From contig NC_089980.1 of the NCBI RefSeq assembly GCF_036417845.1, forward strand, positions 131,528,516 through 131,592,515: a stretch of DNA of 64,000 bases, read 5' to 3'. The stretch's first letter is position 1. Every line of letters starts with the position of its first letter. Below, in pieces: positions 316 through 49,362 of this stretch. The notes under the pieces are model-generated. The model was not told where the DNA came from and did not search any database. It worked only from the letters and a program-made list of their open reading frames with translations. This stretch comes from Apteryx mantelli (lineage: Eukaryota > Chordata > Aves > Apterygiformes > Apterygidae). The position numbers and the translations under genes were made by a program.

Positions 316-433
316 CATGCTGCATTTCTACAAGGGAGAGGTTGAATATTTGCTGGACTACATTTAGACGGAGTTTACCATCACAAAGAATAACAGCTCG
401 CCTTTCATCTGAACCATTTCTGGAAAGCTGCTT
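316..433 (-). CDS. WDCP: WDCP copy A, second coding exon (118 nt)
   Basis: On the minus strand a pyrimidine-rich tract ends in TTTACAG at 434. The exon then reads [20 protein letters not shown] and continues [19 protein letters not shown], ending with one base before a GTATGT donor at 315. It starts in phase 0, matching the end of the large exon, and leaves phase 1. The block (R/K)AV(I/L)LCDGK..L..VQQ.F.L...EM.H is the conserved C-terminal WDCP segment and aligns with 24093-24213 of copy B. It is 3 nt shorter than the copy B exon, so frame is kept. The next exon (the WIVLTAD...IIIRDG type seen in copy B) is not present between 1 and 315, so the gene runs off the left edge of the window. Confidence 0.9.
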
Positions 434-2908
434 CTGTAAATTCAAGAAAGAATCATTAGATACAGTGATGTATGGTTAAGCAGATATATCAAAATGACAT
501 TCATCAAAACAGGATCACAGATACGCCTTCAACTACATCATTTACAAAAGTCAAATGCTACATTCAGACTAATTTTCAAGATTTATACTTTAAAGTCCCA
601 GCTCTCAAAAAGAGATGATCTGTGCAAAGTCACTACGTGCAAAGTCAGCGTCTGTCAGAACTACAGAAGAAATCAGACACTGCTGCTGAAGAAAGCAACA
701 AGCTACATCCACAGCAGAATCCAGACTCTCACCCTATCACCTGCGAGGAACATCTCACCGGGGAGTCTGTAAAGCAGCAAGTTTTCTGTCTTCCCTCCTC
801 CCTGATCCACGTATTATGAAGAGGTGAGAACTCTTATCCATATATGTTTGGAACGAGGAGCAGTCTAACGTATCAGAAGCGCTTGTCTATCACACCTTTG
901 ATCATCACTGCACAAAACCTTAAAAATCCAAATAGCGTCTTCAGAGACTGTCTCCCACGTGGCAGAGCAAAACATTTTTGAAGGATAAAATAAATTGTTA
1001 CAAAATCTACAAACTCTGTTTCCCGGTACAGGATAAAATTCACATAACCATGTCACTTCCCAGAGAAGCCTGGATAATATCAGACAGGATAAATGCCATA
1101 AGGTAAGTTCTGTTTCCGCTTCCACGCTGTGGATGGACCCAAGCACACACAAGAGTTCTGCTGGAGAGGAGCTCGGAGACACACACGTGCTCTTTGCCTC
1201 CCGCACTGACAAACGTGCCGCTGCCCTCTGACAGATGCTGCTCATTGAGGGTTTCCTCTACGATTTGTAAAATACAGCTAATAGCTTGGGCAGCAGCGAA
1301 ATGATCAGGGGTCAGATTCATTTGAGAAGAGCACAAGATGAGGACCTCTTTGCCTGTTAATGATTTCCATGTCAAATATACCCAGGCAACGGTTAAAAGA
1401 CAGCATTTTCTGCCAGAATTTCCAACTTCACCCATAATTTGAAAGTCAAATTCTTTTCTTATCACAGATCATCAGTGATTAAAATCCATAGATTAAATTG
1501 TAGCCTTATTTTCATTTGTGAAACATCCTCATACAAGTATAACTATTTTAGCTCTTGGAGTGCAACTACAAGCTAGAATTTGATTCACTTCCAAACTACC
1601 TGTAAAAAGAGAACAGCGTATAAAAACATAATAAAATCTTGTGCTACCTCAAATATAAAGTGGGCTTCTAAATAAATATCTCGGATAAATGAGAGAGCAA
1701 ACTCACTGGTGAAAACTTTCACTTTTCTATGGGCACTTTTCAGAGTAACGCCTCACATTTAATTAAGATTTAAGAGAGCTAGAAAAATTAGAGTTACTAC
1801 AACTATTAAATGCTTACAGTGGAGAACAGCAAAGACAGTGAGGGGATATAGTCTAGGACCTAAGCTAAGAACCATTATTTTTAGCAATAATAAAGCCACA
1901 AAATAAGTGTTTATTGAAAGCAAATGGTGGTTTAAATGCCTTTGAATATTGACTAGGGATAAATTAATATCTAATAGTCTTAATATGTAAAAGAGGACTA
2001 GTGGATTTTGTGTCATATTTTGACAATCAGACAGTTTACACTTTCTAGCACGAGATTTAGAAGTACCTTCGTTCAGCCAAGGAAAATAAATGGACAAGAT
2101 AATTCAGAATTCAAGCCTCTCATACAAAATATGATTTTTAAGCCATTTTAAAGCTGTGTTAATTGACTTATCTGTTGTGTCCTAAAGGGTCTCTTTCCTG
2201 CTCAGACAGTACTCTCAATATTACTTCGCAAGATTTCTGTTTCAGAGACAAAGCAATTTTTTGGTTTTGGTCCCAGTTATTTGAGAACCTCACAAGAGGA
2301 CAGGAGATACAGATCAGCTCCTGCAGATGGCAGTTTTCCCCACTGACATCTGTAAGCAAAAAGCTTCAGAAATTGCTTAGGAAAAACAATAACTTTCTGG
2401 AACTTCACCTAAAACTTGAATTCTGCTACTGAAACTGGGGTTACTTGCAGTCTCACCGGCTCCTGCCTACAAAGGCAGGATGTGCCTGCTTGGGTCACAT
2501 TCGACCACCTCAGCCCACCCGTGAATAGCAGACATTCCTCAATATTTACATCACTTTAAAAACAATAAAGGTTTGTAGAGCAACAGGACTGTAGAAGACA
2601 TAAATCTAATCCTATTGACCAGTAAGTGATAACTTTTTTTTTCTAAAAATACTGTTTTCATCACTGTTACAGATAGCAGTGCTTTCATTCATACACACCT
2701 ATGTAGCCATGTGAAGTGACAATAATTTTAATTTAAAGATTACAAGAATTATCTGAAACATTTCCCTCATTTTATCTCCTGTCAGAGAAAAGTACTAATA
2801 CACAGTTTTAAAAGAATTGTAAATAGGGACTGAGATATAATTATATTAAGGGTATGGAAAATGTCCATAAACATGTTTTATCATTAAGGCTTCCAATATT
2901 AAAATTAC
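434..2908 (-). other. Intron of WDCP copy A
   Basis: This 2.5-kb intron lies between the two copy A coding exons. It is much shorter than the equivalent 8.4-kb intron of copy B, and no sequence similarity to that intron is obvious by eye. It contains an unexplained 141-codon minus-strand open frame (1040-1465), discussed as a finding. No clear transposon remnant was recognised. Confidence 0.8.
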
Positions 2909-4787
2909 CTGATAGGTGATGTTAATAAAAGAGGGTTCCTGAGAAGATGGGTAGACTGGAAGACTTTTCTTCCCAGCTTTTAGCAGCTCAGTTAATTCAG
3001 AGAGATGATGCTGTAATTCTGTAAAGTTACCAGACAGTTTTTCTACATTTTTCGAAAAGTAACTTGCTTCCTTTTCACTGAATAAGTTATTCTTAAAAGA
3101 ATTTGGTATTTTGGACGCCGCATCCATCTGCCTTTTTGGCGATGTTGACTTGTTACAAAATGCCAGTGGTGTGGCAGACAGTGCCACGGAGCGATTAACT
3201 GGTTCGGCATCCAGAGACTCAATAGCTGGAGGAAAATTCATGGAAACCTTTTTTTCTTTGAGGTCACTCACATTCAACCAGCTTTGCTCGTAAGCGGGGC
3301 TCTTAATTTCTTCAATGAGTTTTCTTCTGCTGGCGGGGGACTGAGTAGCAGCACGACCTGGTAGCAGGAGTCCACTGTTTAGAAGGTGAACGTCTGTAGA
3401 AATGTCTTGAGGTATGTTTGAAATAAGATTAAAACCGAAGCTCGCATCAGCTGGTGCAGACGCTGAAGACACTTCAAATATTAGTTCCTTAATCATCAAG
3501 CGGATCATGTACTTGTCTGATCTTGAAGATGGAAGAAATGCAGGGTCAGTGAATTTTTGTTTTCCAACCATTATCAACAATAATTTATTGGTCAAGAAGC
3601 ACAAACCCTTTGGTTTTTCATTTTTCTCTAGCTGAATTTGTTGAATATTGGGCAAATTGGATGAAGTCAGTGAATAGACTAAAATAATGTTACAAGTATT
3701 GGACGCAACCGATACAGTTTGAGTTTTGGGGTCAAAAGCCATTATATCAGGAACCAGAATGCCTGGGATGCTAACTTTTTTGGTAGAGGTAACCTTTCTT
3801 TCAAAAGTCACCAAAATGAGATGTGACGAATCTTGGCCACTTCCCGTCAGGTAGTCCTTGGGCCTCAGGTGAAGAAGAGGACTGGAATCAGTGCCCTGCT
3901 TGCCAGAAAGTATGTGAGTGAGATCCACGGGAGACGTAACAACGGATGCAGACTTCTCAGAGTCCAGTGACTTTATTCCCCCGTCCATGGAGTATTCTTC
4001 CTCGCCACATAAGCTAGACTGCGAGGGAAAAGAGTCTGTGTCAATGCTCGCTGGAACTTCAAATGCAACACCGGCATTTAAGCCGCAGATCTTGTCCAGA
4101 GGAAGTTCAGTAGCGACAGCAACTTGGAAATTCAGCGTAGCTTCTACAGCACAGATGTAGCCTCCCACATCAAAGACTGGGCAAAAAGAGCAAGCATTCA
4201 GGGTTTTCTGAGCATCGTCCCATATATAAGAATGAAGGGCACTGCCCACTCCGACTACTAAGCGATTGCCCTCCTTAGTCCAGCAAGCGCAATGGATGAG
4301 ACCGCTGCCTTTAATATCTGCTTTAATTCTCGAGTTGTTGAGATGAACGGAGTGCAGGACTGAGGCATCTCGCGTAGTTAGCACCGCCAAGATCTCCTTC
4401 TTCGGATGCCATACGCAGCCCTGGGGGAGCACTGGAAACGGCTCGCCAATGTCACATATCTGAGAAACCAAAAGCTTATTTCTTTCTGCGGCATTAAAAC
4501 AGAGCTGCCAAATAGTGATATGCTTTTTATGCTGAACAGCAAGCAGAGCTGGGGCATCAGCGGGACACGGGCCCCAGTAGAGTCCATGGACGTGTTCAAA
4601 CTGACCAACAACACTTGAGTCACCAAACTTTGGTTCTCCGTTGTGGAGATGTAAAGAAGTTAGTATGACCTGTTTCCCGTCTGTCCAGGCAATGCCATGC
4701 ACAGGATGAATTGCTTGGTACAAGGCATTGAGGCCAGTTCTCAGAAGCTTCGCCTTTCCTAGTTCCATGATTTTTAGTGTGACACAT
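2909..4787 (-). CDS. WDCP: WDCP copy A, large first coding exon (620 codons)
   Basis: This exon encodes the N-terminal beta-propeller-like part and the coiled-coil segment of WDCP (WD repeat and coiled-coil containing protein; the family was reported to bind the SH3 domain of the kinase HCK). Translation starts at 4768 with [14 protein letters not shown], as in known WDCP and in copy B. The frame is open up to 4924 only because the intron is open. A strong acceptor (long pyrimidine tract then TTTAG) ends at 4788 and leaves 19 nt of 5' UTR, so a noncoding exon must lie upstream. WD-like pieces are visible at about residues 22-40 (HGIAWTDG), 145-160 ([15 protein letters not shown]) and 180-210 ([15 protein letters not shown]). 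A serine-rich middle is followed by a coiled coil at about residues 565-605 ([20 protein letters not shown]). The exon ends in ITYQ with donor GT at 2908, phase 0. CpG content is higher than in copy B. Identity is near certain; function is inferred from the family. Confidence 0.95.
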
Positions 4788-6880
4788 CTAAACAAATTAG
4801 AAAGAAAAGAAAAAAGAATATATTGCTCTAGAGGATAGAGGAAAAATAAATGGTTATTTAGCTTATCACCCCGCCAATGCCAGACTCTTCCTTTCAGTAA
4901 CGTCAGTATACACACAGCGTTCATCTATGCTTAGACTCCAACCCCAGAGATTTTAATTTGTAAATTTTCCACTGTGAAATGCCATTTCAAAGGAAATAAT
5001 TTTTTCCCTCTTTACCTGGACTAAATCTGCCACACTTTCATCACAAAACCAGCCCTTTCACTTTAACTGACAGGTTGCTGGTTCTCAGAATATTTTCTGA
5101 TGACTTTTAGCATTAAGAATGTTAAAACTATCCCCTCTGACTCTGTCTCATGGACCATTTGTGGTCAGATAAAGTAATCCCTTACACATATAACAAAGCA
5201 TTAATGCTTCACCTATAACTTTAATCCTATATCAAGCAGGTGAGAATCAGGTATTTGGATAGTTATACCAGAAAGCTCTCTAAAAGAGTAAATGCAATTT
5301 TGAAAAAGGTTAGAATTAAAGCAGATATTTCTAGGGAAATATAAGAGAAAGACAATGAATGGAGGAGGTCCACAACCTTCTCCTAATGTTTCTCCACAAA
5401 GCAAGAATTTAAAAGAACCTAGAACAGAGAGAGGGCATAGAACCATCTACCGGAGGTATCAGCTGTACTGTTTTCAGAATTTTTGAAAAGCAAGTTATGT
5501 GATTTGCCTGATGTCTCAAAAGAAGCCTTTTCAGTTCTCCCTAATTAATATAATAGTTTCAAGGGAGAGAATGGGAAACAGCAGTGAAACCTCCTTCTCC
5601 ATAGTCCATATTTGGTGCCTGGGACATACAAAAGCCCTATGCAAGGCACCGAAACTTCAGAAGGGCTCAAGATTTTACACACATTTCCAGGTTCTGAGCT
5701 GTGAGCAATCCCACTCTGTGCACAGAATCCAGTTCAAAGGAATTGAAGGTTCCCTCATTTAAGATTCTCCATAGGATCTGACTCAACTACAAGGTCACAG
5801 CACAGGAAGAGTTGCAGCTTTAGTGAGAAAACTGAAAAATAACAAGAAAGGGTTCGAGATAGTCAAACTGCAAGGGTTTGGTAACAGCATACCTGGCACT
5901 ACTTGGTATTTTAATTAACTGTTTGTAGATGACCCCAAACTTGGAGGAGGTGGAGTGGAAGAGTGGATAAAACTAGACAGAAAGAGTTATGAGGAGATGT
6001 TGATGATTAAGATAAAAAGCTTCTCATCAAACTAACAAGTACAAAATACCATACTTGGTAAGTAAATAAACAAACTGCATGAATACCACCTTAGGAATAA
6101 TTGCCTGGGTAGCATTATAGCAAAAAATGGTCTGTCTTACAGTAGATCACAAATGGATTACGTCAGTGTTGCAGGTGACATTGAACGGGACAGCGTTGCA
6201 AAATGAGACAGCATCGCTCCTGAATGTTTTAAGAGGGATGCCATACACAGGGCAGATGATTACACCCCACTACCCTCTGAGGTAATGAGATCTCCACCAG
6301 AGCGCTCTGTCTAGTTCCGAGTTTAACACCTCAAGGATGATGGAAATGACTGAAAGAGTTCAAAGACCAGAGAAAAAAAAAGAAGTGGGTTCACTCAAGT
6401 TAGAGAGGGCTGCGAGTGGAGACAAGAGAACAGGGACTAGGCTGTTAACAGGAGAACAGTGATCTATTGTTCTCCCTGTCTACTGTGGATAGTGCAAGGT
6501 AATAATCAGCTTATTTTCAACAAGAGAGATTTAGGTCAGCTATTAAGGAAAAATTCCAACTATAAACAATAGCCAAGCACTGAAACGGGTTACCTTGGGA
6601 AGGGAGAGGGGGCACTCCACGAATTTCATTATCTTTAAGAGGTGGCTAAGGAACTGTCTGTCAAGGATATGTTTAAGTACACTGGATCCGACTCAGGCCA
6701 AGGGAGGGCTAGAGATGCTTCCAAAGCAGCTTCATCTTCCCGGCACTTCTCCGAACTCCAGCGCAACTGACCTCAACCTCGTTAAGCGACCACCGCTCAC
6801 AGTAAAATAAGGCGATAGTTAAGTTCGCCGAATCACGCGTATTCCTCCCCAGGCCATATTTACTTAGGCAAGGGAGCTGG
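4788..6880 (-). other. Probable 5' intron of WDCP copy A
   Basis: Noncoding DNA lies between the acceptor of the copy A coding exon and the CpG island at 6.88-8.05 kb. It is read as the intron after a noncoding first exon, because the coding exon opens with a strong splice acceptor rather than a promoter. Its second half is occupied by an old CR1 element. The upstream exon itself cannot be placed; on the minus strand the sequence around 7442-7449 (CAG then GTGCCC) is one possible donor. Confidence 0.5.
5925..6715 (+). mobile_element. Ancient CR1 LINE fragment
   Basis: The plus strand carries the familiar order of a CR1 3' half in degraded form. A remnant of the reverse transcriptase F-DD-KLGG box occurs near 5926-5948 (reading VDDPKLGG). 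A stretch resembling the IVDHKLN / QCDAVAKK region follows near 6135-6200, and the 3' tail (GGGTTACCTTGGGAAGGGAGAG, then AAGGATATGTTTAAG) lies near 6590-6680. Stops and indels are frequent, so it is long dead. The family call rests on pattern recognition, not a database match. Confidence 0.6.
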
Positions 6881-7577
6881 TAACCTGCCTCAGGAGACAC
6901 GCGGAGGTGCTGAGCCTCCCCGGCCATCCGGAGAGCTTTCTGTGGGGCAGGAGATGCTTTGCTTATGCTCTGCAGACCTGGAAGAGCACAGCCAGAAGGA
7001 TCCCCCCATTCCCCCCCCGCCGCCGACGCCCAGGGGCGTCCCCAAACCCTCCGACGTCTCCCGGGCGCGCAGGCCCCGAGGCGCCCGGCGCGGCGCGGCC
7101 TCTGGGGGCGTCGAGGCGGGCCGCCGGGGCCGGAGCGCCAGGAGCCCGGTGATGGCCGAGGAGCGCCCTCCGCCCCGGGCCGGGCCGCGGGCAGCTGCCG
7201 CGGGGGGCCCCGGGCAGGGCTCGGCCCCCAGGGCGGGAGCACACGGAGGGCACCAAAAGCCGCCCGCCCGCGCCGCTCCCTGCGCGGGCCCGCCCGCACC
7301 GGTATCGCCCCGCTCCCTCACGGGCCCGCCCGCCCCAGCGTCCCCCCGCCTCCCTCCGTGGCCCGCCCGCCGCTGCCTCACCCCGGGGCCAGTGGGACGG
7401 TCCCCGCGGCGGAGAGCGGCGCTCGCTGTGGCGGGCACCTGCTGAGCGCGGCGCGGCCCCACCTCCCGCTCCCCGCGGGGGGCGGGCAACGGGCGCTGCC
7501 TCTCGACGCTCTACCCGCCCCGCCGCGTATCGACGATGCTCTGTAGCGGCGCTCTAGCCGGCCACGCCTGAGCGGTA

Positions 7578-7584
7578 TGACGTA
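7578..7584 (+). promoter_or_regulatory. CRE-like site
   Basis: TGACGTA matches the CREB/ATF half-extended element. It overlaps the left arm of the 7581-7600 inverted repeat and lies 34 bp from the ZNF143-type site. It is a short motif, so function is an inference from context. Confidence 0.5.
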
Positions 7585-7600
7585 GGCGCGGGCGCCTACG
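7581..7600. repeat. Perfect inverted repeat, 9-bp arms
   Basis: CGTAGGCGC, then GG, then GCGCCTACG: a perfect palindrome in the core of the CpG island. The arms could bind a dimeric factor or form a short hairpin. No known factor is assigned. Confidence 0.8.
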
Positions 7601-7617
7601 CGGGGCGGGCGCTAAGA

Positions 7618-7637
7618 ACTACAGCTCCCAGGGTGCA
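7618..7637 (+). promoter_or_regulatory. ZNF143/THAP11 (SBS) type site
   Basis: The sequence ACTACAGCTCCCAGGGTGCA fits the well-known promoter motif ACTACAnnTCCCAnnnnGC bound by ZNF143 and associated with THAP11. Such sites typically lie close to transcription starts of CpG-island promoters, which suits its position in the centre of the island. Binding is inferred from the motif only. Confidence 0.75.
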
Positions 7638-8639
7638 ACGGGCGAGGCGGCCCGTGGGTGTTGTGTGCGCGTGCGCGGCCCCGCCCGCCCCCTCCGGCGG
7701 GCGGCGCGAGCGGCCTCCTGGGGGCGTCGCAACGGTCGTTGCCGCTGAGGCGGGCGCGGGGGAGGCGGCGAGGATTCGCCCTCCCTGTCGCTCCTGCGGG
7801 CCCGACCCGCGCTGCCGTGTCCTGGCCGCGGCCTGTGGCGCTGGGAAAGGCCTGTGGCGGGGCCTGAGGAGCGCAGAGGGCCGAGGAAGGGAGGAGGCGC
7901 CTCGGGCAGGAGGCCCCTGAGTCCCCAGTGCGGAGCGTCCCGTCCCGCCGTGTCCTGCGCTGGGGCTTCGGGCCTCGGCGGTGCCTCGCTGTCGGGGCTC
8001 AGTGCGCACCCGGGGGCCGGAGGGCCTTCGTCCCCGCGGGCGTGGCACAGGTTTGAACATGAAGGCCGCAAGTTTAAAAGTTATTCACACCCTTTGGCAC
8101 AAGATAAGCAAAACAAGATACACACCTTTGTTATCTTCTCGGGAGGTCACGTTTAAACCCAGTGTGTGTAAACCCAAAGTGTGTAAATGTGACATGGAAT
8201 AACTCCAAGCCAACTTCGTTGGTCTTGAAATATTGCACTGGACATAACTTTCTTGTTAAAAAGTCTCTAAGGCCTTTCTTAAGATAATTGCACATGCTGT
8301 TTCAAGATGTGTGCTGTGGCACTTTGTTGCTACTTGGTATTTCAAAGCAGTTTGATTGCTGTGCAGTTTCTGAAATTCATACTTTTGATAGAATCTTGAA
8401 ACATTGAAAATGTGTACTAAAGAGCTACCAAATTGCTTCAAGGTGTTGAAAAAATGCTTGACATGGTGCAAGGTCAAATACATAAACAGCTCAAACTGTA
8501 CATCTCACCAAAAAGAACTAGGTGGTGACTTGACTATATTGCCTAAGTGCCTTTACAAAGAAAAAAAAATAGTGGAAGTAAAGAGTTTTTTAACTTAGTG
8601 AAGAAAAGCTTAAAAAGAGCCAGTGGATGAATTAAAGTA

Positions 8640-8880
8640 AGACACAGCTGTGATTTTCATTAACTGCTGGAACAAACTACCAACAGAAAGAGCGGATCCT
8701 CCACGTACACTTTCGAGTCAAAACTTGATGATTTTCAGGGACATGTTTTTCAGCTAAATGCAGGTTTTGCCTTAGTCATGGACAAGTTTCTGAACTCAAT
8801 ACATGGATTGTAGATGAAATTCAACCGCCTGTGATGTACAAAAGGTGAGGATGTCTACGTATCTGTGACAGACTATTGAT
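8640..8880 (+). mobile_element. Ancient CR1 LINE 3' fragment
   Basis: The text around GCTGGAACAAACTACCAACAG, followed by a GGATCCTCC...TCAAAACTTGATG stretch and an AACTCAATACATGG...GAAATTC...CCTGTGATGTAC tail, follows the 3' untranslated region of old sauropsid CR1 copies. It is heavily degraded. The call is based on pattern recognition. Confidence 0.5.
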
Positions 8881-11800: not shown

Positions 11801-12089
11801 AAGAGAGCAAACGTGCTTCTAGCATATGTGAACAGGATCAGGTAATGTATGTTTCAGACAACTGATTTTTATCCGCTTGGGGAAAAGGCATGGGCAATGT
11901 AGAAAGCTCTTCCAGGAATGTTTTGTCAGCCCCTGCAGTCTTCAGCCATGCGACTGCCTACTTTTTTTGTATCTAAAAACCTATACCAGTGCTTTTTCTG
12001 TGTCTAAAACAGGCCTGAGTAAGACTTCAACTAAATCCTGCTAACTTTGCTGCAATTTAAGAAAGATAATGAATAATTCTAGCTTATGG

Positions 12090-12445
12090 CAGAGTAACAA
12101 GAGGACCAGGATATATGTCTGTGAGATAGACTGAAGGAGCGGGTATCATTTAATGACAAGACGACTGAAGGGAGACATAGCGTTAAGAGAGAGGGGCAAA
12201 AGGCAACGGACATAAACTGTGAATAGTCAAAAATACTGTGTTTAAATTACTGCAATTGCAGTATAAGCATTAAGAAAAATCTAATGCTAAGGCTAGCTGC
12301 ATGGTAGAAAAGTTTGTGTACGGAGTTTGTGGACTCTCCATCACTGAAGTTTCAAACAATATTTAGATAAGCATCAGTCAAGGATGGTTTTGATAAAGTT
12401 GATCCTGCTTTGAGGCAGAAAAATGAACTAGGTAACCTTCCTGCA
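12090..12445 (+). mobile_element. Ancient CR1 LINE 3' fragment
   Basis: The order GACTGAAGGGAGACATAG, then a long degraded stretch, then GGAGTTTGTGGACTCTCCATC, ACAATATTTAGATAAGCATC, GTCAAGGATGGTTT, then a GATCCTGC...GAACTAGGT end is that of an old CR1 3' terminus in plus orientation. Many substitutions are present. The element is noncoding now. Confidence 0.6.
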
Positions 12446-18500: not shown

Positions 18501-18521
18501 ATGCTCAGATGTGTTTGGGGT

Positions 18522-18549
18522 TTTTGTTTGTTTGTTTGTTTGTTTGTTT
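18522..18549 (+). repeat. (TTTG)n microsatellite
   Basis: About seven tandem TTTG units in an otherwise unremarkable AT-rich stretch. Confidence 0.9.
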
Positions 18550-19545: not shown

Positions 19546-19551
19546 TTTATT
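19546..19551 (-). terminator. Candidate polyadenylation signal for WDCP copy B
   Basis: Reverse complement AATAAA lies about 600 nt downstream of the copy B stop codon. An ATTAAA variant near 19763-19768 is an alternative. The hexamer is common in AT-rich DNA, so this is only a candidate. Confidence 0.3.
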
Positions 19552-20150
19552 TCTCTTCTGCATGCATGTGTAAATCTACATGCTATGTAAGACACTGACC
19601 TGAGACAGTGATGCTGCCTTTTTTAATAGCTGAACATTTTCACATAAAAATTATGCATTTCCGAAAGCATTGCAGGTTTCCATGGGATCTACTGGAACAG
19701 CAGAGAGAGCCTGGAAGGTTTTTTTTTTCTTCCTAGTTTTCCTTAATAAATATAAATGCATTTTAATCACATTTTCTTCAGCCTTTGTGTAGACCCTACA
19801 CCTGTATTTGCTAGATGTATTGTGACTGCATAATTTTTAGCATAATATTGTTTCTCCAAGAACATCCTGACCACAATTAAAGTGCAGCCTAGTCTCAGCG
19901 CTCCAAACCACGGACAGCCATTAATAGCAACAGCGGCGATAAACATCAGTCTAGGTCGGACCCTTCAAAAGAAACCATACAGGCTCAGCCAAGCCTAGAA
20001 TCTAGCTACTGTGTAACCGTGCCACAGATTCGACTGTTAAAATACCCTGAAAGTACTGAAGTCAGCTTTCTAGTCGTTCAGTTGCTGACACGGCAGAACA
20101 TCTTTTGATTGTAGTAGACCAGAAGGTCATTAGCATTCTTTGCTCAGAAA

Positions 20151-20317
20151 TTAAGTCACTCTGCTTGGTGGTCGCACCGAAGCGCTCTTTTGGTAGGAGT
20201 GACCTCCACAGACTTCCGAGCTGTCGGTTCCATCCCTTATGATTATCTCTTGCGTTGCTCGGAATATTAATGGCACAAAGCCGTCGTTGTCTGCGGTGAG
20301 CACAATCCAAGAAGAGC
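20151..20317 (-). CDS. WDCP: WDCP copy B, terminal coding exon
   Basis: A pyrimidine-rich tract ending in TTTTCGTAG at 20318 precedes the exon. With the single base carried over from the previous exon it reads [17 protein letters not shown] and continues to the [10 protein letters not shown] block, which is the conserved C-terminal WDCP motif. The frame ends at a TAA at 20153-20151, after an RVT C-terminus. The tail after IIIRDG is shorter and less conserved than in the human protein. Together with the other two exons it gives a predicted protein of 734 residues, close to the human length of about 720. Confidence 0.9.
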
Positions 20318-23300
20318 CTACGAAAAGTAAGCATGAAAAGGAAATGAGTGTACTGCTCTGGTTACATAAAATGTACAAACACATTTTAAAAAGTCATCCG
20401 GCACATGTGCAGAGCAGGCTTGCTTTTTGTGCGCTAAAGCCTTATTACCCTAATGACATTAAGGTCTGGCAATCCGCGCTAAACACACCTTTGCGTAAAT
20501 GGAAAGGGAAACTAAATGAAAGGGCTTGAAAGGGCTTGAGGCATTTTGCCCCTTGCTTAAGTTCTGTTGAGTATCAAGGTGTAGTTTTGGAGTTAGTAAA
20601 GAAAATGACTGTGCTGTATTTGTTCTGGAGAGGAATAGGGTTATCCTCTCCTTCACTGTCAATCCAAGATTGTTCTGTATCTTTTCAAACTCATCTGACA
20701 AATGGAAAATAAGTTACACTTTGAAGATGATTTACAGAAGAAAAGAGATTGGGATGTTTTACTTCTCTTTGATAAATAAGTCACTAAAAGTCACTTGTTC
20801 TTGTTTGAAAAATTAGGAATGTTATGCTTTGTCTCTATGTTTGTTGAAACATTTTAGTGATATCAAAAATACATATTGTGAGTTTTCTTAGCATCACTTG
20901 AAGGGTTGATTTTTGGTCATCAACATTTATACAATTAAGTATACTCATATAATGCAGCTGATACTGTAAGATTTCTTGTCCTTTAATTATCTGTTGAATC
21001 TTTTCATAAAGAAGAGAGTGAATAAAATCTGAAGAACATTTTATCCTTTTTTCAGAAAAAAGAGGTAAAATTAAAAGGCAAAGCCATAAAAAACATTAAG
21101 ATTCACTTTTCATACATTGCATAGAAGCAGAAATAAACCTGAAAACCCAGGTTGTTTTACTTTCCTTTGGAAATCAGCTTGAAAATGAAGCTGTATGTAC
21201 TGGATATATATATTTTCTTGTGATTGAAGTATTTCCTGTTGGATTGGATATTGAAGTTATTATAGGAAAGAGTGAATTTTCTGTTTGTCTTTTGTACAAC
21301 TTGACATTTTATGGAAAAAAAAATCTGTGGGAACAGATACACTTTGTGGGAGCCCTTGTATCACCGTTTTTCATACAGCGTGTGGTCCTGTCATTACTGA
21401 GCAGGGGGACATTACCTGGGATTATCTGAGGTACGGAAAGCCTTGCTGTGTTCTTTTGTTGTAATTTTTAATTTTGGGGGATGAGCTTGTGTTTTGAAAA
21501 GGAATGTGGAAAAGGGAAATGTAGATCCACAAAACATGCTTCATTTTTGTCAGTCATAACAAAACATTTTACTGGACAAAGTAAATCTCCGCTGCTTATA
21601 CAATTAACAAAGCACTTATACAAGCTGCTACATGTTGTCATGTCACCATAAGAAGACTGACATTCTAAACCGTGACTCTTTAATCTTCTACCCTTAATAC
21701 TTTCTTTCTAATTCTGGACAGACTTCAGATTCTGCAAACAATGGGCCTGAAAGTGGAAATTCTGCTGCCCAAATCAGTAGAATTACGTTATTGGTCAAAT
21801 CAGTAAAGCATACTCTTTTGTCACACTTTTGGTACTTTTATTTCCCTCCATTGAAATGGGTGAAATTCTCTGTATAGTTGGGGACACTTGCTGTGAAGTG
21901 TATCCCACAGAATATTTCAACGGTGGAAAAATCTTGTGCAGAATGTGATACCCTTTTGCTGTGCACAATCGTTACAGATGGCCTGCGGAAAACAGCGACT
22001 TCTAACTGTGTGCTAATACTAGGGCTATATATGACAGGCTATGTTTAGCACAGGTAATGGTATTACAGTCCTGGACTTAAAGCACCCATGATCAGGCCAA
22101 GTTCATTGCTCATATAACTGATAATTTTTATAGCCTTGCCTTGGGTATGAATTTGGCCTATAGCTGTAGACTATTTTTTTCAATATATTCAAGTTGAAGT
22201 GTATATTCAAAGGAAAAAATGCTAACCATTGCAGTATAAGCACATTGTTCATTACGTCCCCTTTAATTATATAGCATTAGAGGATGGGAGTGATATTTTT
22301 AACCATTAAATTTAATATTCACGCCTTGTGGCAAAGGAAAGATTTGGGAATATAAACCTCTACTGGTCAGAACTGAATAAAGAACTACATAATTACCTCT
22401 GCCCTGAATCTGATGATTTTGCATAGTTTTAGCAGGATTCTTGAGTCAGTTCTTCCTTTTGCTGTCAACAAACAGACTCAAATTCGGAGCAGGCTGGCAG
22501 CACGTTCACCAGAGAGGGGGACAAGCTAGGGTGATTCTGAGACATTGTCTTCTTGGTACCTCTGAAGTCTAACGCACAAAACTGAAGGGTAGCATTCTGC
22601 TAACTACATAGTCACTTCGTAGGGCTGAAAATAGGCTTTCTCAGGCTCCTTCTTCACAGTGAATTCCAACCCCCTTTTTTTCCTTACGGGCATTTATGTT
22701 TCCAAAATCAAGAACTGGAAGTGCAGGCCAAAAATGGGATCCTCCTTGTCCCATAAAGCTGCGCTGCATTATTGCAGAAGTCTGCTGTGAATAGCTCAGG
22801 CCTCTATAGCAAATGCAGATTTTCTATATATGTCTCCATTCCACTGTACAGTCGAGAGAGATGTGCTGACAAAAATACAAAACCTATATATCCTTACCTT
22901 CTGGAACAGCTTACATAACCTACTATAAGCCAGGGGAAAACTGAAATGGCCCAACGTGTCTCAGTTCTGCTGAGCTGTGGTATCATAGATATAGCCCCTT
23001 GTCTTCATTCTTGTGGTCTCAGCAAGAGCAAAGACATAAGCAGAATAAGAATGGCAGAAGAAAGAATATGCATAAGATAATGCATATTTTCCCTCTCCTT
23101 TTCCCACTGTCCTTGTTGCCAGCACCAGTAATATCCCAGGCCTGGTTTCTCGTTCACCAATAAGCCTGTTATATAGCAATTTGCTATGTAACCATCATTA
23201 CTTGGTAAATTATAGCTTAGATTATCACAGTCTTTTCATTTTGATTTTACCAAAAGTTGAATTCATTTCTCGTAAGACAGAGGGTACCAATTAAGCCAAT

Positions 23301-24092
23301 GTGTCCCTCTGCCTGTCAGGGCTAAGACAAGGAGCAAGGCAATGAGGGATTTATGGACCTCTCAGTGTGGAAACTATGCAAGAAGATAATAATTAGAGCC
23401 AAAGAATGTGGACCATAAAATCATAATATGCTTAGACTGTGATGAGAAAAGCCATCAGAAGCCTTATAGAGAAATGGTTGAGAAATAACAGTCTGTATGT
23501 TTGCTGAGGAGCGAGCACATGCGAACAGACAGGGACAAGGTAGTTCAGAGACCAGCCTGGGGCTAGAATTTCCCTGGCTGCTTCCACTTTTACAAATAAA
23601 TCAGTGGTGGGTGGTAGATATGTGAGGCTGGCAAATTAGAACATGGAGTTTTGTTGTTTATCTTAGATTAAACTAATCCCAAATGCTACATGACACATAT
23701 ATATCATTTTCTGAGGATGAATTTTTCTCCAGCCTACTCTTTGTTGTCAGGTGTGGGACGTGCTTGTAAAGATGGGCAAGGCAAAATGCCAAAAGGTCTC
23801 ATAAGAAAGTATTTCTATTTCCAGATAGCACAGTGTGCTGATTATTTTCTCAGCCTTCCTCTGTAGAGGCATTTAACAGATTACTCTGGTAATAGGGAGT
23901 TCTGCAATTACTTAGCATTTAAGTGATTTCAAAAGATGCTGGGCTGTATTTCAGACAAAGAAAAACAAATACTTATCAAGAAAAGTTAGATATCTCCGTT
24001 TACTACAATAAAGAGTAATTACTCCACCACAAATGCCCCTTTCATGCTAAAAATCTCAGGTGAAACCAATACCAGAAATAAAAAGAACATAC
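20318..24092 (-). other. Last intron of WDCP copy B
   Basis: A 3.8-kb AT-rich intron between the second and third coding exons. No conserved block or clearly classifiable transposon was recognised in it. Confidence 0.8.
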
Positions 24093-24213
24093 CATGCTTC
24101 ATTTCAATAATGGGCAGGTCAAAAAGCTGCTGGACTAAACTCAGATGGATCTTGCCATCACAGAGGAGAACGGCTTTTCTTTCTTCAGCAGCTGCTCCAT
24201 TTGAAAAACATTT
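24093..24213 (-). CDS. WDCP: WDCP copy B, second coding exon (121 nt)
   Basis: The exon starts after an AG at 24214 (weak pyrimidine tract, TTCGAAG) and ends with one base before a GTATGT donor at 24092. It reads KCFSNGAAAEERKAVLLCDG, then KIHLSLVQQLFDLPIIEMKH. It aligns with 316-433 of copy A and enters in phase 0 and leaves in phase 1 in the same way, with one extra codon. The acceptor is the least convincing site of this gene; the first one or two residues could shift if another AG is used. Confidence 0.88.
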
Positions 24214-26489
24214 CTTCGAATGCATATATGTAAAAGAAAAGATCTTGTTAAAGACTTGCCTATTTTGCCTCAGTTCTTTTAACCTTTCTTCCGCTCTTAT
24301 TCCTTCCAGCTCTTTACTAATTTTGACTGTGAAGAGAGGCTGTGCAGAGAGGCTGTAAAGCTGCTCTAATAAGGTAGCTGGGGACTCATATGGATTTCTT
24401 TGAGAGAGAGGGAGTTGTGTGGACTTACTGCCCTGGGGGTTGCTCTGACATTAACAAAATCCCCCATTTGAATATAAAGGTGGCAAACTCATGCTTCATG
24501 AAGTTTAGCTGGCCTTGAGAATTAACACCTTTGAGATCCATCACCCTGGTGACTGCAAAGTGCGAAGACTACAAAATAGTTGTTATAAGAAATTGAGTTA
24601 ATGTGGTTATGGAATGGTTATATATTTGCATTTGCAATTCGTTACCTGCTATCATTTGAAGGTCAGTTTTAGCATTACGACTTTTCCAGTGACTCAGTGC
24701 CACCATTAAATATATGTGAACTGGACATTTTCTTCTAAATCATCTTGCTGTGTTTTTGTGCTGTAAAATCCATTTTGTTCTTTCCTCCCCATACTTTCCA
24801 CCTGTTTAGTTCCCATGTATTTTTTGCCTTTGACATCACTTATTTTTGCAGAATCTCCAGATTTCATGTATTTGTTAATTTAATTAACAGTCTGTTTATC
24901 CTGTTGCATAGACATTTCCATTTTGTACATTCAGAATGGATCCAAGTTAACATTTTAGAATGGGTGGAAAAGAAGTCATCTATCCCAAATCCCATTTTGG
25001 TCCTGCCCTGTCTGTGTCTGCTTCGCACCCCTGGATCTTTCTTGCTGCTGAAATTTCCGACTGAGTCAATTCACACTGCATCTTCTATTTCTGTGCTCAG
25101 TAATCTATTCTACAAGTTTATTAACCTTTGGCTAAATACATCTCTTAATCTCTTTTAACACTCATCTCTTAATTTCTAATTGGGCTGTCTTTTTGGCCCT
25201 GTCAGTCTCTCAGTGAACACGTGCTTTCTCGCTATGCAACATCCTTTCTAAACCAAATAATCACTTTTATTTTTTCTGTACATTGAATGTATGCTCTCAC
25301 GAAACCCCCGGGATTCTGTAAGTCAGAACGTCTACCAACTGCTGTGAAAGTGTGTTTTCTCTACTCTGTTCTAAATTGGCTATGCAGATAAAGTCCCTAG
25401 CTGACTGTTATTTAATTACATATTATGATAGTTTGAAGATATAAGAACTACAAAAATAGTTCTCAGTTAAAAACCCCATCCAGCTTCAGAGTTTTTTTCA
25501 TTGCTTTCCCTGTTCAAAACAGCCAGAAAATTTTTGCTGTGTAATAAATAGGGAAATATCTAAGGAATGCATCAGAGAAGTATCATTTTCTGAATCATAA
25601 ATATATAGTAACTTTTTATTACAGCTTTTCAGAGCTTCTTAGTTACTTTTAGGTCTTTTCAAATTGTATAGTGCTATTCTACTGAACCTAAATACACTTA
25701 AAACTCGATGGGCTGAATTTTCAGCAATGGGCATGTGCTTTGCATTTACATTCCAAAGATGCTATTTGCCCGTACAGATATTGGTGCAATGTTTTTTGTT
25801 GCTGCTTATTAATAAATCTCACAACTGCTTCATTTTTCCTGGATTCAAGATGAAATACCAGGGTTTACCAAAATACCAAAATTCTACCTCTGTTAATGAA
25901 TTATGAACAGTGGTGGACTGTAACTGAGACAGGCACGTTGCCTTGACTGGAGGGGTTCATTTTTTCATATAGACATGCTTCAACTGCTAAAAATCTGAAA
26001 AAAAAGCAGTCGAGCTGTGCCTCTGTTGATTTGAAATCAGTCGAATGGAAATATATATTAAGAATGTATGTTCCAGTATGTTTTCTACTTAGCCCTGCAA
26101 GTTATTATTGTAACTGCTATTAGAAGTAGGAGACATTTTTGTATTATTATACAAAACTACATGGTATCTCTCTTTTATCCTAACCTATGATTTTATAGGT
26201 TTTCAAGTACAGACCCCAGAGCTCCAGTCTCAGAGCTGTTTGTCTTTCATCACTTCTGAGCACTTATACCAAATTATTCTCTCTGTTTATAATGATAAAA
26301 TTGGTCAGCTTTACCTTTTATTTTTGTGTGCTGGCAAATTCTGTCAGGTCAAGAATCTTTCTCTGTTTTAATCTTCTATTTAGCCTCTTCTTGTTTAATG
26401 TTTAGGTGATGATAACATGCCTTCTCTTTGAAGAATATATTCGCACAGATCTTATCATATATTAAGTGATTTAAACCCATGCCTTCTTG

Positions 26490-26620
26490 AGAGGTAGGTA
26501 ATTGTTATTATTCCCTTTTTATAGATGATCAAACCATGACACAGGAGGATTAAGAGATTTACTCAAGGTCATGCAGGTAATTTGTGACAGAGTTAGAAAT
26601 ACAACTAAATCTCACCTTAG
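26490..26620 (+). mobile_element. MIR/L2-like ancient SINE-type remnant
   Basis: The plus strand follows the very old amniote repeat core: ATAGATGATCAAACCATGAC, then ACTCAAGGTCATGCAGGTAA, then GACAGAGTTAGAAATA. This is the order of the MIR/L2 3' core (GATGAGGAAACTGAG... CAAGGTCACACAG ... GGCAGAGCTGGGA). It is strongly diverged; the call is by pattern only. Confidence 0.5.
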
Positions 26621-27379
26621 TACTTGCCATTTTCATATCTTGACCCAAAGACCATTTTCTAGTAAAATCTAACTTTAATCTAGCCCTTTCTAAAATATGT
26701 ATCTCTGCTTTTGCTGTGTTGCTGTTTGTCTCCAATGGAAGCCAGAGGGCTTGCAATTCTGTTTCAAAGCCCTTAAAATTAGTTGTTTTATCCGAAAACG
26801 AAGTTTATCGGTGGACTAAGAACATACTCGCAGAAGAAACAAATATATTTCCACATGCTTGAGTGGATATTTTCAGATCAAGTTTCTTTAGCCAACTTCC
26901 TGTAGTATGTCGGGTCCAGCTCCCCCTCAGCAAAGAGCCAACAGAAACAAACCATCAATTCAAGAACTGTTTTCCTCCATCTGTGTCAGCCTGCCCCCTG
27001 AGCGGATTTTATAGCCTGTAAAGGGTCTCCTGGGCGGCAGCCCGCCAATCACAGTGTCGCCAAGCCATCTTTCAAAACTCGTGTTTTGGAAAACAGATAT
27101 ATATGGGAAGAAAATCATTTGCGAAAGCAGAAGAGGTTCCTGGATTAGCTGCCATACACCATATGTGTGTGCAATAAATCAACGTGTATTTTATCTCTGT
27201 TTTGAACCCCACTGAGCAGTCAGCTGGTTCTACCTCTTGACCCTTTTCCCCTATTAATCTTGTATTTCCTAATGCGCTGCCCACCCTTGCCTGGATGCCA
27301 AGATCATCTTCATGAACTTAAATTTAATGACCGGTGAAACTGTGAGGTAAATCAGAATATGCTACCAATCAAAAATGCT

Positions 27380-28130
27380 CTTACTAACCCTGGATCAGTG
27401 ATTCCCTGCAGTCTGAGTGTATCTTCTTGTACACGGATGACTAGAATTGTAAAACATATTCCAGATGAGGCCTCACTGCTGTGCTGCCTTTCGCACTGGA
27501 TATACCTCACTGATGTATCTGAAGACTGCCCTGCTTCTTTTGATAACTGTATCACGTTTCTGAGTCATAGTTGTCCTGTAGTCACTTAACACGTGCAAGT
27601 CTTTGTCTTCCTCAGTTGTTTCCAGCTAATGAATATCCAGTATAGAACAGAAATTCTTGCTATAAATCCTGGAATATATGACTGTGCACTTCATATTAGT
27701 TCATTTAAATCCATTTTTATTGTTCTAGATGTTAAGGTCATCGAATTGCATGTGTGATATGCTATCCTCCATTGAAAATATTACTGACTTTGTGTCATAA
27801 GCAGATTTTATTAGTGTATCTCATCAGATCATTAATGAAACTTTTGGATTACCCTGAAGATCTTTCATGGGAAAATCCACGAGTAAATTTCCTCCATTTC
27901 CTTTTATTTTAGCATAACCATTTACTATCTTTCCTTTAGCTAACTCCTTAACCATCCTATATTTCTTCTATTAATCCCTATTCTCTGCAGTTGAATAAAT
28001 AATCTCCCCTGTGGCACCATTCCAGGTGTTGTACTGAGTTACAGGTATTTTAAATATTCTTCACATCCTTTGTGTGAATAACTATTCTTTTATGAAGGAA
28101 AGATACCAGGTTAGTCTGTCACATCTATGC
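27380..28130 (-). mobile_element. Ancient CR1/L3-like LINE fragment
   Basis: In minus orientation the text follows the CR1 reverse transcriptase 3' half. Landmarks on the plus strand are the TGACTTTGTGTCATAAGCAGA piece near 27787, CTAACTCCTTAACCATCC near 27941 and CCTGTGGCACCATTCCAGGTG near 28009, followed by AGGAAAGATACCAGGTTAG near 28098. All frames are broken. Age is clearly greater than that of the copies near 44-51 kb. Confidence 0.55.
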
Positions 28131-29079
28131 ATTGTAAGATGAATAGGTCTGTATTGCCTACGTCTTTATTTTCATTTTCTTAAACCCTTGATTTCAGCTC
28201 TTTGAATTGTGCCCCAGTGGTAATTTCAGCTTTGATACCCATTAGTCAGCCTGCTTTTGCCTTGCCCCCATATTCGTTATATGTGAGGAGAGAAAACTGG
28301 TAAATTATACAGACGTGGGGGGATCTGGCCAAGAAGACAATGAGAAAACAGTTAGGTGGTTGCAGGAAGAGCGCTGAAGAGGAATGAGAACTATAATTTT
28401 TCATGTTCAAAGCACTGTGCGTTCTTGAGCCTTGTGCAGCATTGCCACGGGTGGTAGTATTTGGGTTTGGCAGAAGCGGTCCTTTCCTGTCATGAGGCCT
28501 ATTGCTGCTACGATTCCTGTTTGATTTTTGATGGATCCCGATTTTATTGTGGTGGAGGTCTTACTAACTTTGCACGCCCTTATTTGAGACATTCCGATTG
28601 CAAACCTAACTGACCCATAGGAGAAGCATAAACCTGTAAAATAGTTTAAGGTGGAAGAGTTTGTATGTGCTCAGAGGTGATTAAATCCCAGTGCGGTTTG
28701 CTTTTATAGCTCGCAGAAGGACACCAGCACTTCAGATGATGTGATGCTAGGATTTCTCTACTCCTGGATACCCATTCAGATGGGTGCAACTAAAGTTTCA
28801 GATGCCCTCTAATGTGAGACGTTTTCTTTGCCCCCATGCTTGTGCTTCTATTACCTTTATGTTTGGGATGTTTTATTTTAACTCCAACCTTTACGTCCTT
28901 TGCAAGGTATGAAATCTTGGATTCATCTTAAACTTTACATGTTCCATTTCTCTCGCGTTGGTGTATCTGACAACCAAAAAACATCTGGTCCCGTGGAAGA
29001 TATCGCAAGTCCCCTGCGAACCCTGCTTGTCTGCTGTTGCTCAGTTTTAGAACATGGTCAGAATTTATCCTGAATGGAT

Positions 29080-29385
29080 CCTGCAACCTTTGCTCAAAAT
29101 CTTAAGCCCGCATTAATCACATCTTGTCTCGACTACTGCAGTTCTTTCTTTTATGGTCATCCTAAATCTCTTCCGTCTAAACTTCAGGATGCCTGACTAG
29201 TTTCTTACTCCAGGGAGCAGTCGTATCATCCTCCTCTTCCATCATTTTCATGGCTTCCTTTCTGTTGCTCCACCTGAGTCAAAACTGCCCTTTGGATTTC
29301 AAAAAGGTTCATGGACTTATTACAGCTAATCGTTACAGCTTGGTTTCTCCTTATCTCCTTGCTCATTTTACGCTGCCACCCTTAA
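29080..29385 (+). mobile_element. Degraded L2-like LINE reverse transcriptase C-terminus
   Basis: Conceptual plus-strand translation gives SRLDYCSSFFYG, then KLQDA, then PLPSFSWLPFCC, then VKTALWISKRFMDLL. This follows the order LDYCN..LYG..KLQ...HWLP...RI.FK..L...K.LHGL known from the C-terminal part of L2/Jockey-type LINE polymerases. Frame breaks and stop codons occur between the blocks. Avian genomes carry few such remnants compared with CR1. Confidence 0.5.
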
Positions 29386-32300
29386 TGCACCCCCCACCCT
29401 TCTTTATCTCTATCCATGTATTTGTATTAAAAAACTTTATTGCCATGTTTTGATCCTTTCTATTCTTCTCCCACCTCTGTATAAAAGATTGTTTATTTTA
29501 TAGCTGACCTTGGCAATAAAGTTTCCCGTGGTAAATTGTACGAAGATGCTGTAAAAATACAAATTGACTTGCATACAATTATTGGTGAGTGTTAAGAAAA
29601 GGAAATCATGATGACTAATTGCTGAAAATGTATTTATTTCCTGTTGAATTATGCAACATATGCTCTCAATGATACAGACTTCTGACATCATATGGCTTGT
29701 GAGCAAAATGCAGGAATTTTAAGATACTCTTCGAATTAAGATGAATCTTGTTCCTCCTAAAGAGGTTTGCCTAAATGCCATTAATTTCAAATCTAGATTG
29801 GCTTTATTTCCACTGTAATTAGCTTTTGAATGAGGCTTGTTTAAATATTCTGCAGCTGTTTCTTTTCTGGGGGAAAACAATGATAAAAGTATCTTTCTGC
29901 AAAATGAAACAGAAACAAATCTGTGACAGATTTTCATCTTTCTTTTTTCTTGTTAAATAATATCTTCTTATTGCGTCTGTCTGTCTGCCCTCCCACACTA
30001 TCCTGAATCACAAGTCTGTATGCGATGAAAGAGCAATAATATTTGCTTTTCAGGGTTGAATGATCAAGTCACCTCTGGTGGCTGAATGCTATTACACAAG
30101 TGATAGTGCAGTGACATTTTCAAAGCGTGAGTGATCATGTTTTTCTTTTACGGCTGCGGGATGCAAAGAATATAAATTCTGATAGTACTGCATGGACATG
30201 ACTTCAGAGAAGCTATAGGTAGGTTAGAACTAGCAGAATAAACAAAGGTTTTGAAGAATATTTAGTAAATAGACATTATGAATTATTAAGTCATTTACCT
30301 TCTGTTTTATATTATGGTTTTCTAAGCAGAACTGGAAATTTTATGTATGTAAATAATGTTTCCGCACAGCAAAGTTCATAATCGACCATTAATTATTGCT
30401 ACGCTTTTAGCTCTAATGGCTTAAACTTTCCTTTTATGTTTTTAATGCGCAGATATGGTTATGCAGCATGGATCATTTTTATATTTTATAGTACAAGAGA
30501 TTTCTCAATCAGGATTGAGCCTCTGCTGTGCTGGGGATTATACAAACACTTAAGAAGACGTGCACTTGGCACAAAAAGCTGACAGCTAATGGCCATATTA
30601 TTGACTGGACTGCAGCGTTCCTAAAGTTTAGGATGTTTTCCACAGGCTGATATTTATATCGTAAGGCAATAAAGCTATTTCCTGACTTTTTGCACTGTGA
30701 ACGCAGAGCCTGGCTGGAACCCACAGCCCAGCTGGTTTCTGAGCTCACAGAGTGCTAATCAGCTCCTGAAGGAGGAACAAGGTTCAGATGTCTGAATCCA
30801 AACTAATCAAAACAGCTATTTTATGAGCAAATTATTAGCTGCCTATGAAGCAAATATTTCCCTGTCTGGAGGCCTTTTTGTCATCAGTCTATTTATCATT
30901 ATTTTTTGGCATCCAGCTGTGATCCTGTTAGGTTTCAGAAGCAGGGTTGAACTACGCAAGGCGTTTGATGCGAGACTTCCACAGAAGAGCTGCATGTGCC
31001 TGAAAGACGTTAAGTGGCACTTTTTCTGCGTCATTATAATGTGGTGCCAGAGTTGCTCTCTGCTGGCTCAATGTGAAACCGACCTGTTTAGATAAATAAG
31101 AGACTTCCTTTCCAAATGTAGTTAGTCTGGCAATATTTTATAAGCACTAAATTTTCTTTGTTTCCGAAGAGGAAAACAGGAAAATTAATTCTTACTGCTT
31201 GTGCAAGCAAACATGTGCACAGTGACTTTCAGATCTTAGATTAATGTTAGGTGTCACAGTCAGAACTACTCTTTGGAAAGGTTAATCCAATAGAATCCAA
31301 CAGATAGGGCTCCTTGCTAAATAAATAAGTGAATTTACGTTAAGAAATCAGAATTAATTTGAATCTGCTGTAGAGCACAAGAGTTTATTTTTTGGCAAAT
31401 AAAATCCTAAATTATTTAAAATGGACATGTTTGCTTTTTTCAGCAGAATTTGTATAATATATTCAAGTTAAATTATTGACTAATTCAGATCAAAAGCTTT
31501 GCTTTCATCCAGAGTGCCTAACATACTAAAATCTGCTAAAATGCCAAGTAAACAATTGCTAAAAAGTAATGAATATATTTGAATTTAGTCACAATTCCCT
31601 TAATGAATGTTTTAAGAGTGGTGCTTAGATGCGTATATATGGATCCCTTTAAAATAAAAGGAAGTCATTATTGTATATCTGTGAATCAAATTTTATTGAG
31701 ACATACATACTTCAGCATCATCACTGTAATAACTCCATTAATTTGACATAATGGTGCTTAAAGTGCAATAGACAAGAATACATTTATAATTGGCACCTAC
31801 GTCCTGAAAGGGACCTCAGCTTCAGCAGCAGCATGACCAAAAATATTATCATTATAATATTAGTGTTACTGCTAGCATCACTTAAGAGTGATAAATAATT
31901 GCCCAGCCTGTATTCTTTAGTCAGTTGAAATTCTTACTGATGTCAGCAGGACTTTTGCCAAAATAAGGATGAGATAGGAACATGATGATTTGACATTCAC
32001 CTATTTATTTAATGAAATAATTACATTTTGACATTTTTTTCAGAAAATTTGAAGTAGTAATACTTTTTTTACAGATTGATTATGTCCAGTTGTGTGAAGA
32101 CTGGCAAAAGAAATAAGCCAAATTCATATCACTCCCATTTGAATTTTCTGTAGGTTGAGATTCAGTACTTTGATTCAGCCTTCATGAGATCCCAGCTACC
32201 TCCAAACTTTGGATTTGAGCTTGAGTTTGAATTTATCGGGTTGCTGATGAGGATGGTTACTGTACCACCCAGCTCAGGCTCATCTCTATACTGAACTAAT

Positions 32301-32650
32301 ATATAAACCTTTTGTACATTAATGACCGTTTGGCTCTGTTCTCTTCTTTGATAGATACACACAGAGTCAGCAAGTATCCAAGACAGTTGTGCACAATCAA
32401 AGAAAGAAGAACAGACCCAGATCTTCCATATGAAGTATCCTGTAAGTTACCCACATAGTCCTTAGTTATTGTTTCAATGACAAATTATAATACCTTTTTA
32501 AATTAAGCTTGATGTCAGACTCAGATTACATTTCTAATTGGTTAATAAGAATTAAACTGCATCCTCTTGATTTAAAAATAAATAAATAAAAGATTTTTTT
32601 TTAAATTGCAGTGCCCTATCGTAATATTTCTAAGTTGATGAAAAAGTTAC

Positions 32651-34567
32651 CTGGTAAGTGATGTAAACAACAGGCGGTTCCTCTGAACATGGGTAGGCTA
32701 AAGATATCCTCTTCCCATTTTTAGTGAAGTTTGTTAGTTCAGAAAGACTCAGTTGTAATTCACTGAAGCTCCCACAAAGTCTCTCTAGATTCCTAGAGAT
32801 GTGACTCATTCCTCTTTCATTTGGCAAGTTGTTATTTTTAGGAGAACTTGATGTTTCTTGGATCACATTGAACTGCGCTTTAGGAGAAGTTGGTCTGTTG
32901 GAAAGCCTGGTAGGTGTTCTGAAACCAAGAAGAGCCACTGAACGATTGATGATAGGTTCAGCATCCAAGGCAACTGAGGGGTCACCTGGGAACCTTTTTT
33001 CATCCTGGTCACTCACACTTGATGAAGAGCTCTGTTCATAACTAGGGCTCTTTACTTCTTCTATGAGTCTTCTCCTGCCACTAGGAGATTGAATAACCGT
33101 GCTCTGTGGCACTAGCAGCTCCCTGCTTTGAGCTTGGTCTTCTGTGGCAATATTTTGAAAGAACTTTCTTTTTCCAGGTATATTCACAGAGGATTCAAAG
33201 TTATAAAACATATTCTGGTTAGTCTCAGGCAGTGCTGAAGAATCTTCTTCAAACATCAATTCTTTGATCATTAAACGCATTACATACCTGTCTGAACTCG
33301 AAGATGGAATGAGACAAGGCTCAGGGAACTTTTGTTTTCCAATCAGAATCAATAGGAGTTTTTCAGTCAAAAAGCATAAGCCCTTTGGTCTTTCATTTTT
33401 TTCCAGCTGGATTTGTTGAATATGGGGCATGCAAGAAGAGGTTACTGAATACACCAAAACAATATTAGAAGTATTAGAGGCTACTGCCACAATCTGAGCT
33501 CTAAGGTCAAAAGCTATTATATCAGGAACCAGAATACCTGGGATAGTGCCTTTTCTGGTGGTGGTTACCTTCCTCTCAAAAGTCACCAAGATCAGGTAAG
33601 AAGAATCCTGACCATTTATTGATGCGTAGTCTTTGCGTTTCAGAGTAATCAGAGGCCCAGGATCAGACCTCCGATGGTTTGCAAGAATATTGGTTAAAGC
33701 CACAGGACCCGATGAAGAAGATGCTACTGAATCCACAGTGACTGATCTATCTGAATCTGTAGACTTTCTTCGAAGGTCCGTGGAGTATTCCTCGTCACCA
33801 AGCGCCAGAGTAGACTGTGAGAGTAAAGAGCCAGTTTCAGTACCAGATGGCACGTCAAATGTAATGCCTGCATTCAAACCACAGATCTTATCTAAAGGAA
33901 GCTCAGTAGCTACAGCAATTTGGAAATCCTGTGTGGCTTCTATAGCACAGATATAACCTCCCACATCAAATATTGGGCAAAAGGAGCAGGCATTTAGAGT
34001 TTTCTGAGTATTATCCCATATATAGGAATGAAGGGCACTGCCTATAGCAACTACTAAACGGTTACCATTCTTAGTCCAGCAAGCACAGTGGATAAGCCCA
34101 CTGCTTTTGATATCTGCTTTCACCCTGGTATTGTCAGAACGAACAGTATGCAGGACTGAAGCATCTCTTTTTGTAAGCACAGCCAGGACCTCCTTCTTTG
34201 GATGCCACACACAGCCCTGGGAAAGCAGTGGAAAGGGCTCACCAATTTCACAAGTCTGAGAAATCAAGGGTTTGTTCTTCTCTGCAGTGCTGTAGCCCAG
34301 CTGCCAAATGCTAACATGCTTTTTATGCTGAACAGCAAGCAAAGCTGGGATGTCTGTAGAGCAGCATGGGCCCCAGTAAAGCCCATGCACATGTTCAAAT
34401 TGACCAACAACACTTGAGTCTCCAAACTTTAGTTCTCCATTATGATAGTACAGATCAGTCAGTACCACTTGCTTCCCATCTGTCCAGGCAATTCCATGCA
34501 TGGGGTGGATGGCCTGATATAAAGCGTTAAGGCCAGTTCTCAGCAGTTTCGCCTTTCCCAGCTCCAT
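32651..34567 (-). CDS. WDCP: WDCP copy B, large first coding exon (639 codons)
   Basis: The exon encodes the propeller-like and coiled-coil parts of a second WDCP protein. The start [14 protein letters not shown] at 34567 is identical to that of copy A, and 54 of the first 60 residues match copy A; similarity falls in the serine-rich middle (about residues 255-310 and 480-560). Visible pieces are [14 protein letters not shown] (24-37), [15 protein letters not shown] (about 148), [15 protein letters not shown] (about 183) and a coiled coil near residues 590-620 ([19 protein letters not shown]). It ends in ITYQ with donor GT at 32650, phase 0 as in copy A. The frame is uninterrupted. A candidate acceptor CACCAG or AGACAG lies 13-20 nt upstream of the ATG, so a noncoding first exon is likely. 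Its place is unknown; the FKBP1B CpG island is one candidate since human WDCP and FKBP1B are head-to-head. Confidence 0.95.
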
Positions 34568-49286: not shown

Positions 49287-49362
49287 GTACGGGACGTGCG
49301 GGGGGCGGCGGGGCAGCGCTGCGGCGCGGCGCGGGGCGGCCGGGAGGGGATGCCGCGGCGGG

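Follow-up and report, generated by a model that had tools for sequence, protein, structure and literature searches.

Two complete copies of WDCP lie in tandem in Apteryx mantelli, in and just beside the 64,000-nucleotide stretch analysed here (C3:131528516-131592515, on a contig of 141 Mb, called the window below). The duplication is genuine and old, with both copies whole and retained, and it is of an ordinary kind. It is highly likely that a tandem duplication of genomic DNA produced the pair from one ancestral WDCP, very probably before the time of living birds, and that both copies are complete, have been constrained on average and were kept. WDCP (C2orf44) is a poorly studied gene, known as an HCK binder and an ALK fusion partner.

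Structure and family of the two genes

The copies (Pfam PF15390) stand in head-to-tail order on the minus strand, with copy 1 running leftwards from 4768 and copy 2 at 34567-20151, and encode proteins of 749 and 734 residues, respectively. Each is complete with three coding exons, the third of copy 1 being taken from flanking sequence outside the window:

2909..4768, minus strand: WDCP copy 1 exon 1, coding part, 620 codons, 1860 nt, ATG at 4768
316..433, minus strand: WDCP copy 1 exon 2, 118 nt, phase 0 in, phase 1 out
C3:131526475-131526746, minus strand: WDCP copy 1 exon 3, 272 nt, 1.8-2.0 kb left of the window
32651..34567, minus strand: WDCP copy 2 exon 1, coding part, 639 codons, 1917 nt, ATG at 34567
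24093..24213, minus strand: WDCP copy 2 exon 2, 121 nt, phase 0 in, phase 1 out
20151..20317, minus strand: WDCP copy 2 exon 3 with stop codon, 167 nt

The initial annotation had described two minus-strand WDCP genes 15.4 kb apart, with open large exons of 620 and 639 codons and second exons of 118 and 121 nt with identical phases. All of this was found again: the distance from 20151 to 4787 is 15,364 bases, each large exon ends in ITYQ followed by GT, and the intron phases agree between the copies, with a GT start and an AG end in all four coding introns. The length differences keep the frame, as had been stated (1860 against 1917, 118 against 121 and 272 against 167 nt). Position 4787, given as the start of copy 1, directly follows an AG acceptor that has a long pyrimidine tract; the exon begins here, and the coding sequence at the ATG at 4768. 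The acceptor just before 4787 suggests that copy 1 has an upstream non-coding exon.

One stop was counted by the family search in exon 1 of copy 2, but it is the one that terminates the open frame, at 32630-32632, and it lies 21 bases past the donor site. In the same gene the acceptor of exon 2 (TTCGAAG; 24205-24245) is purine-rich and looks weak, and judged by eye, use of either of two AGs just downstream of it would break the phase.

The Pfam profile covers exon 1 almost whole in both copies, with E values of 2.7e-295 and 0 and scores of 982 and 1015 bits (cut-off 25.3), and exons 2 and 3 of both are also above the cut-off and reach profile position 694 of 694. When the PF15390 family was searched in the bird's own assembly (1,504,198,195 bases, 408 contigs), six matches were obtained, three exons from each of two copies and no others, and a protein search gave two exon 1 matches; all candidates were scored (6/6 and 5/5, respectively), among those that the initial screening step lets through. 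Of the 53 and 50 pattern matches that one scan each of genome_contigs and viral_contigs gave with the two-copy alignment as query, none was a relative. NCBIfam gave no family match for the copies, and the four other open frames of the window have no family above the cut-off.

Both proteins would have an N-terminal WD-type core in common, and a coiled coil at the C-terminus. The propeller profile PF25460 matched both copies weakly and below its cut-off (E about 5e-5), a sequence search of solved structures in the PDB gave 0 matches at E up to 1, and an AlphaFold model of copy 1 exon 1 from a two-row alignment had a mean pLDDT of 29. The human WDCP sequence presumably contains a PxxPxR motif, a plausible site for the SH3 domain of HCK. 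The motif PxxPx[RK] is absent from both copies, so that these proteins do not necessarily act through HCK. The reverse form [RK]xxPxxP occurs once in each, but not at corresponding positions. Proline SH3 motifs are no defining feature of the PF15390 profile.

Divergence and age of the duplication

The two proteins are identical at 450 of 709 aligned residues (63%), and the identity is unevenly distributed: 82% in residues 1-240, 53% in 241-340, 73% in 341-440 and 48% in 441-639 and the last exons. The alignment gives 54 of the first 60 residues as identical, the same count as in the initial annotation, and the strong divergence that it had seen in the serine-rich middle is confirmed by an identity of about 50% in this middle part and the tails. 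The serine-rich tail is longer in copy 1 than in copy 2. Such a pattern is as expected if the core has been kept while the linkers and tails diverged.

At the third codon positions the copies are 53% identical over 654 codons. The synonymous divergence (dS) was 1.16 with LWL85, 1.22 with ML, 1.41 with YN00 (bootstrap 0.99-2.27, 192 of 200 replicates used) and 1.51 with NG86, and 110 of 199 four-fold sites differ, which corresponds to a four-fold distance of 1.04-1.08. No signal of gene conversion was seen, neither when the front and back parts were compared (codon identity 0.56 and 0.48, p 0.17) nor in the best 40-codon window (p 0.67).

The amniote split lies at 312-330 My. With this date and the human WDCP, a three-sequence protein clock gives an age of about 196-208 My for the pair. 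Other clocks come from two papers. A mean dS of 0.418 between chicken and zebra finch, four-fold rates of 1.23-2.21e-9 and a chicken-finch split of 90-126 My are quoted in PMC2911116, and the divergence of 1.04-1.41 between the copies is thus 2.5-3.4 times the chicken-finch mean. With these four-fold rates the point estimates run from 235-320 My for the fastest rate to as much as 574 My for the slowest, and the bootstrap limits widen the span to 224-921 My. The fastest intron rate quoted in PMC2946954, 3.9e-9, gives about 127-181 My, with its low end close to the oldest date quoted for the chicken-finch split, 126 My. The clocks disagree, and the age rests on near-saturated sites, but every estimate exceeds the 90-126 My quoted for chicken and finch, the lowest only just, and a duplication older than living birds is therefore very probable.

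It is conceivable that the duplication is older still and predates the split between mammals and sauropsids, in which case mammals would have lost one copy and the human WDCP would be the orthologue of copy 1. We regard this as unlikely, even if two-rate synonymous ages of 366-518 My (345-864 My with the bootstrap limits) would allow it. Across 683 sites compared with the human sequence, 131 group the two copies together, while copy 1 groups with human at 68 and copy 2 with human at 53, and the gene conversion that could have caused this was not seen; a long human branch could however mimic the 131-site signal, and three sequences cannot be rooted. The branch lengths obtained with iqtree from the same three sequences were 0.256, 0.281 and 0.585. 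In the last two exons (alignment columns 640-900) the pattern is reversed, copy 1 sharing 15 sites with human and 8 with copy 2, while copy 2 and human share 9, and this leaves room for an older split or for a faster tail in copy 2.

Constraint on both copies

The pairwise dN/dS was 0.16-0.21 by four methods (NG86, LWL85, YN00, ML), a historical average whose reach ends before the present-day constraint on each copy. As it averages two branches, the value for one copy can be at most about 0.42 even with the other unchanged (0.56 at the bootstrap limit), and neither copy has been unconstrained for most of its history. The claim of selection on both proteins is thus borne out as an average over history, with both frames open.

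That one of the copies is young or dying and has stayed open by chance is highly improbable, although the somewhat weak exon 2 acceptor of copy 2 is what one could expect of such a gene. A dS of about 1 or more speaks against it, as do the limits on dN/dS just given. Furthermore, when copy 1 exon 1 was simulated under neutrality, with 0.5 changes per site and no indels, 0 of 1000 sequences stayed open and the mean number of stops was 18, and the rates of the two copies do not differ significantly (53 against 68 sites, p 0.17). An assembly artefact, with haplotype copies or mis-joined sequence taken for two genes, is extremely unlikely, with nothing seen in its favour, because the proteins are only 63% identical, with third codon positions at the 53% given above, and both copies lie on one 141 Mb contig with no N in the window.

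Neighbourhood and origin of the pair

The gene order is MFSD2B-like exons, WDCP copy 1, WDCP copy 2 and FKBP1B. The exons to the left, on the plus strand between 39 and 14 kb beyond the left end of the window, are similar to MFSD2A (human query sequence) and were named MFSD2B from their place. To the right, FKBP1B was recognised from the following exons:

49250..49279, plus strand: FKBP1B first coding exon, 10/10 residues identical, E 0.09
52781-52831, plus strand: FKBP1B next exon, E 5e-8

A further coding exon of FKBP1B lies near window-equivalent 91.7 kb, which makes the intron after exon 2 at 52781 very long. A search of the 134 kb fetched recovered neither the last FKBP1B exon nor SF3B6 (best E 0.17 for the latter, human query). 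In human we take WDCP to be a single gene adjoining FKBP1B, in the order MFSD2B-WDCP-FKBP1B. This neighbourhood is present here, with two WDCP copies in it. The bird genes are thus like the human WDCP (C2orf44, PF15390) in their full-profile family match and in their neighbours, the MFSD2B-like exons and FKBP1B, but differ from this single-copy gene in being two and in having PxxPxR in neither. They resemble what is generally known of old vertebrate tandem duplicates in the same orientation, the kept introns and the constraint on both copies, with no difference in kind.

The initial annotation had read the pair as an old genomic duplication with introns kept, and this reading holds: the exons are colinear with matching phases, the flanks are the MFSD2B-like exons and FKBP1B, dS is about 1 or more and the second introns align faintly. 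Apart from that alignment, a shared repeat and the CpG islands, nothing in the matching introns and flanks of the copies aligns at E <0.1. The stretch in question is:

21628..21840, no strand: copy 2 intron 2 stretch, 62% against copy 1 intron 2 (window-equivalent -1065 to -863), same orientation

Its 203 bases score 35.4 bits, a value that 0 of 100 shuffles reached (best shuffle 34.0), and a search of the 134 kb fetched for further matches to it, at E up to 1, gave a single one, of 43 bases and 29.7 bits. The stretch agrees weakly with a DNA-level duplication of great age, and it could be a conserved element. Upstream, the flanks also resemble each other, near 15.2 and 44.0 kb, but this is due to a repeat present at further positions in the window, and the likeness was discarded.

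Two CpG islands lie upstream of the copies:

6701..8200, no strand: CpG island, 2-3.4 kb upstream of copy 1
48501..50000, no strand: CpG island at the FKBP1B start, 14-15 kb upstream of the copy 2 ATG

The first is likely to be the promoter of copy 1, and the second may possibly be a promoter common to FKBP1B and copy 2. We rejected the likeness between the islands as a sign of a shared promoter. Its 62.5 bits are reached by none of 100 dinucleotide shuffles (best 42.5), but since 52.5 bits are obtained with the opposite strand as well, we read the likeness as shared composition.

The pair would descend from one ancestral WDCP between MFSD2B and FKBP1B through a tandem, DNA-level duplication that is very probably older than living birds and may have taken place in early archosaurs or sauropsids. 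Copy 2 would have kept the promoter on the FKBP1B side, with copy 1 using a CpG island of its own. It is conceivable that both were retained through shared-out or shifted roles in the diverged serine-rich middle and tail, or through differing places of expression; a division of function between the copies, raised in the initial annotation, is a guess.

A wider possibility, to which we give slightly less than an even chance, is that archosaurs or all sauropsids carry a WDCP pair more than 200 My old and absent in mammals, with roles split through linkers and tails, and absent from the literature matches listed, none of which deals with a WDCP duplication. If many birds and reptiles keep both copies, a comparison of the two would show which parts of WDCP are separable, and gene lists with a one-to-one relation between human and bird WDCP would need correcting. 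If they are not widely kept in birds and reptiles, the pair is an ordinary duplicate.

It was also possible to observe a third CpG island at 60501-61300, inside the FKBP1B intron, to which no gene is assigned. The island at the start of that gene is flanked by an inverted pair of about 700 bases, 44310-45006 and 50470-51186, the two being 90% identical and presumably CR1 elements by their look.
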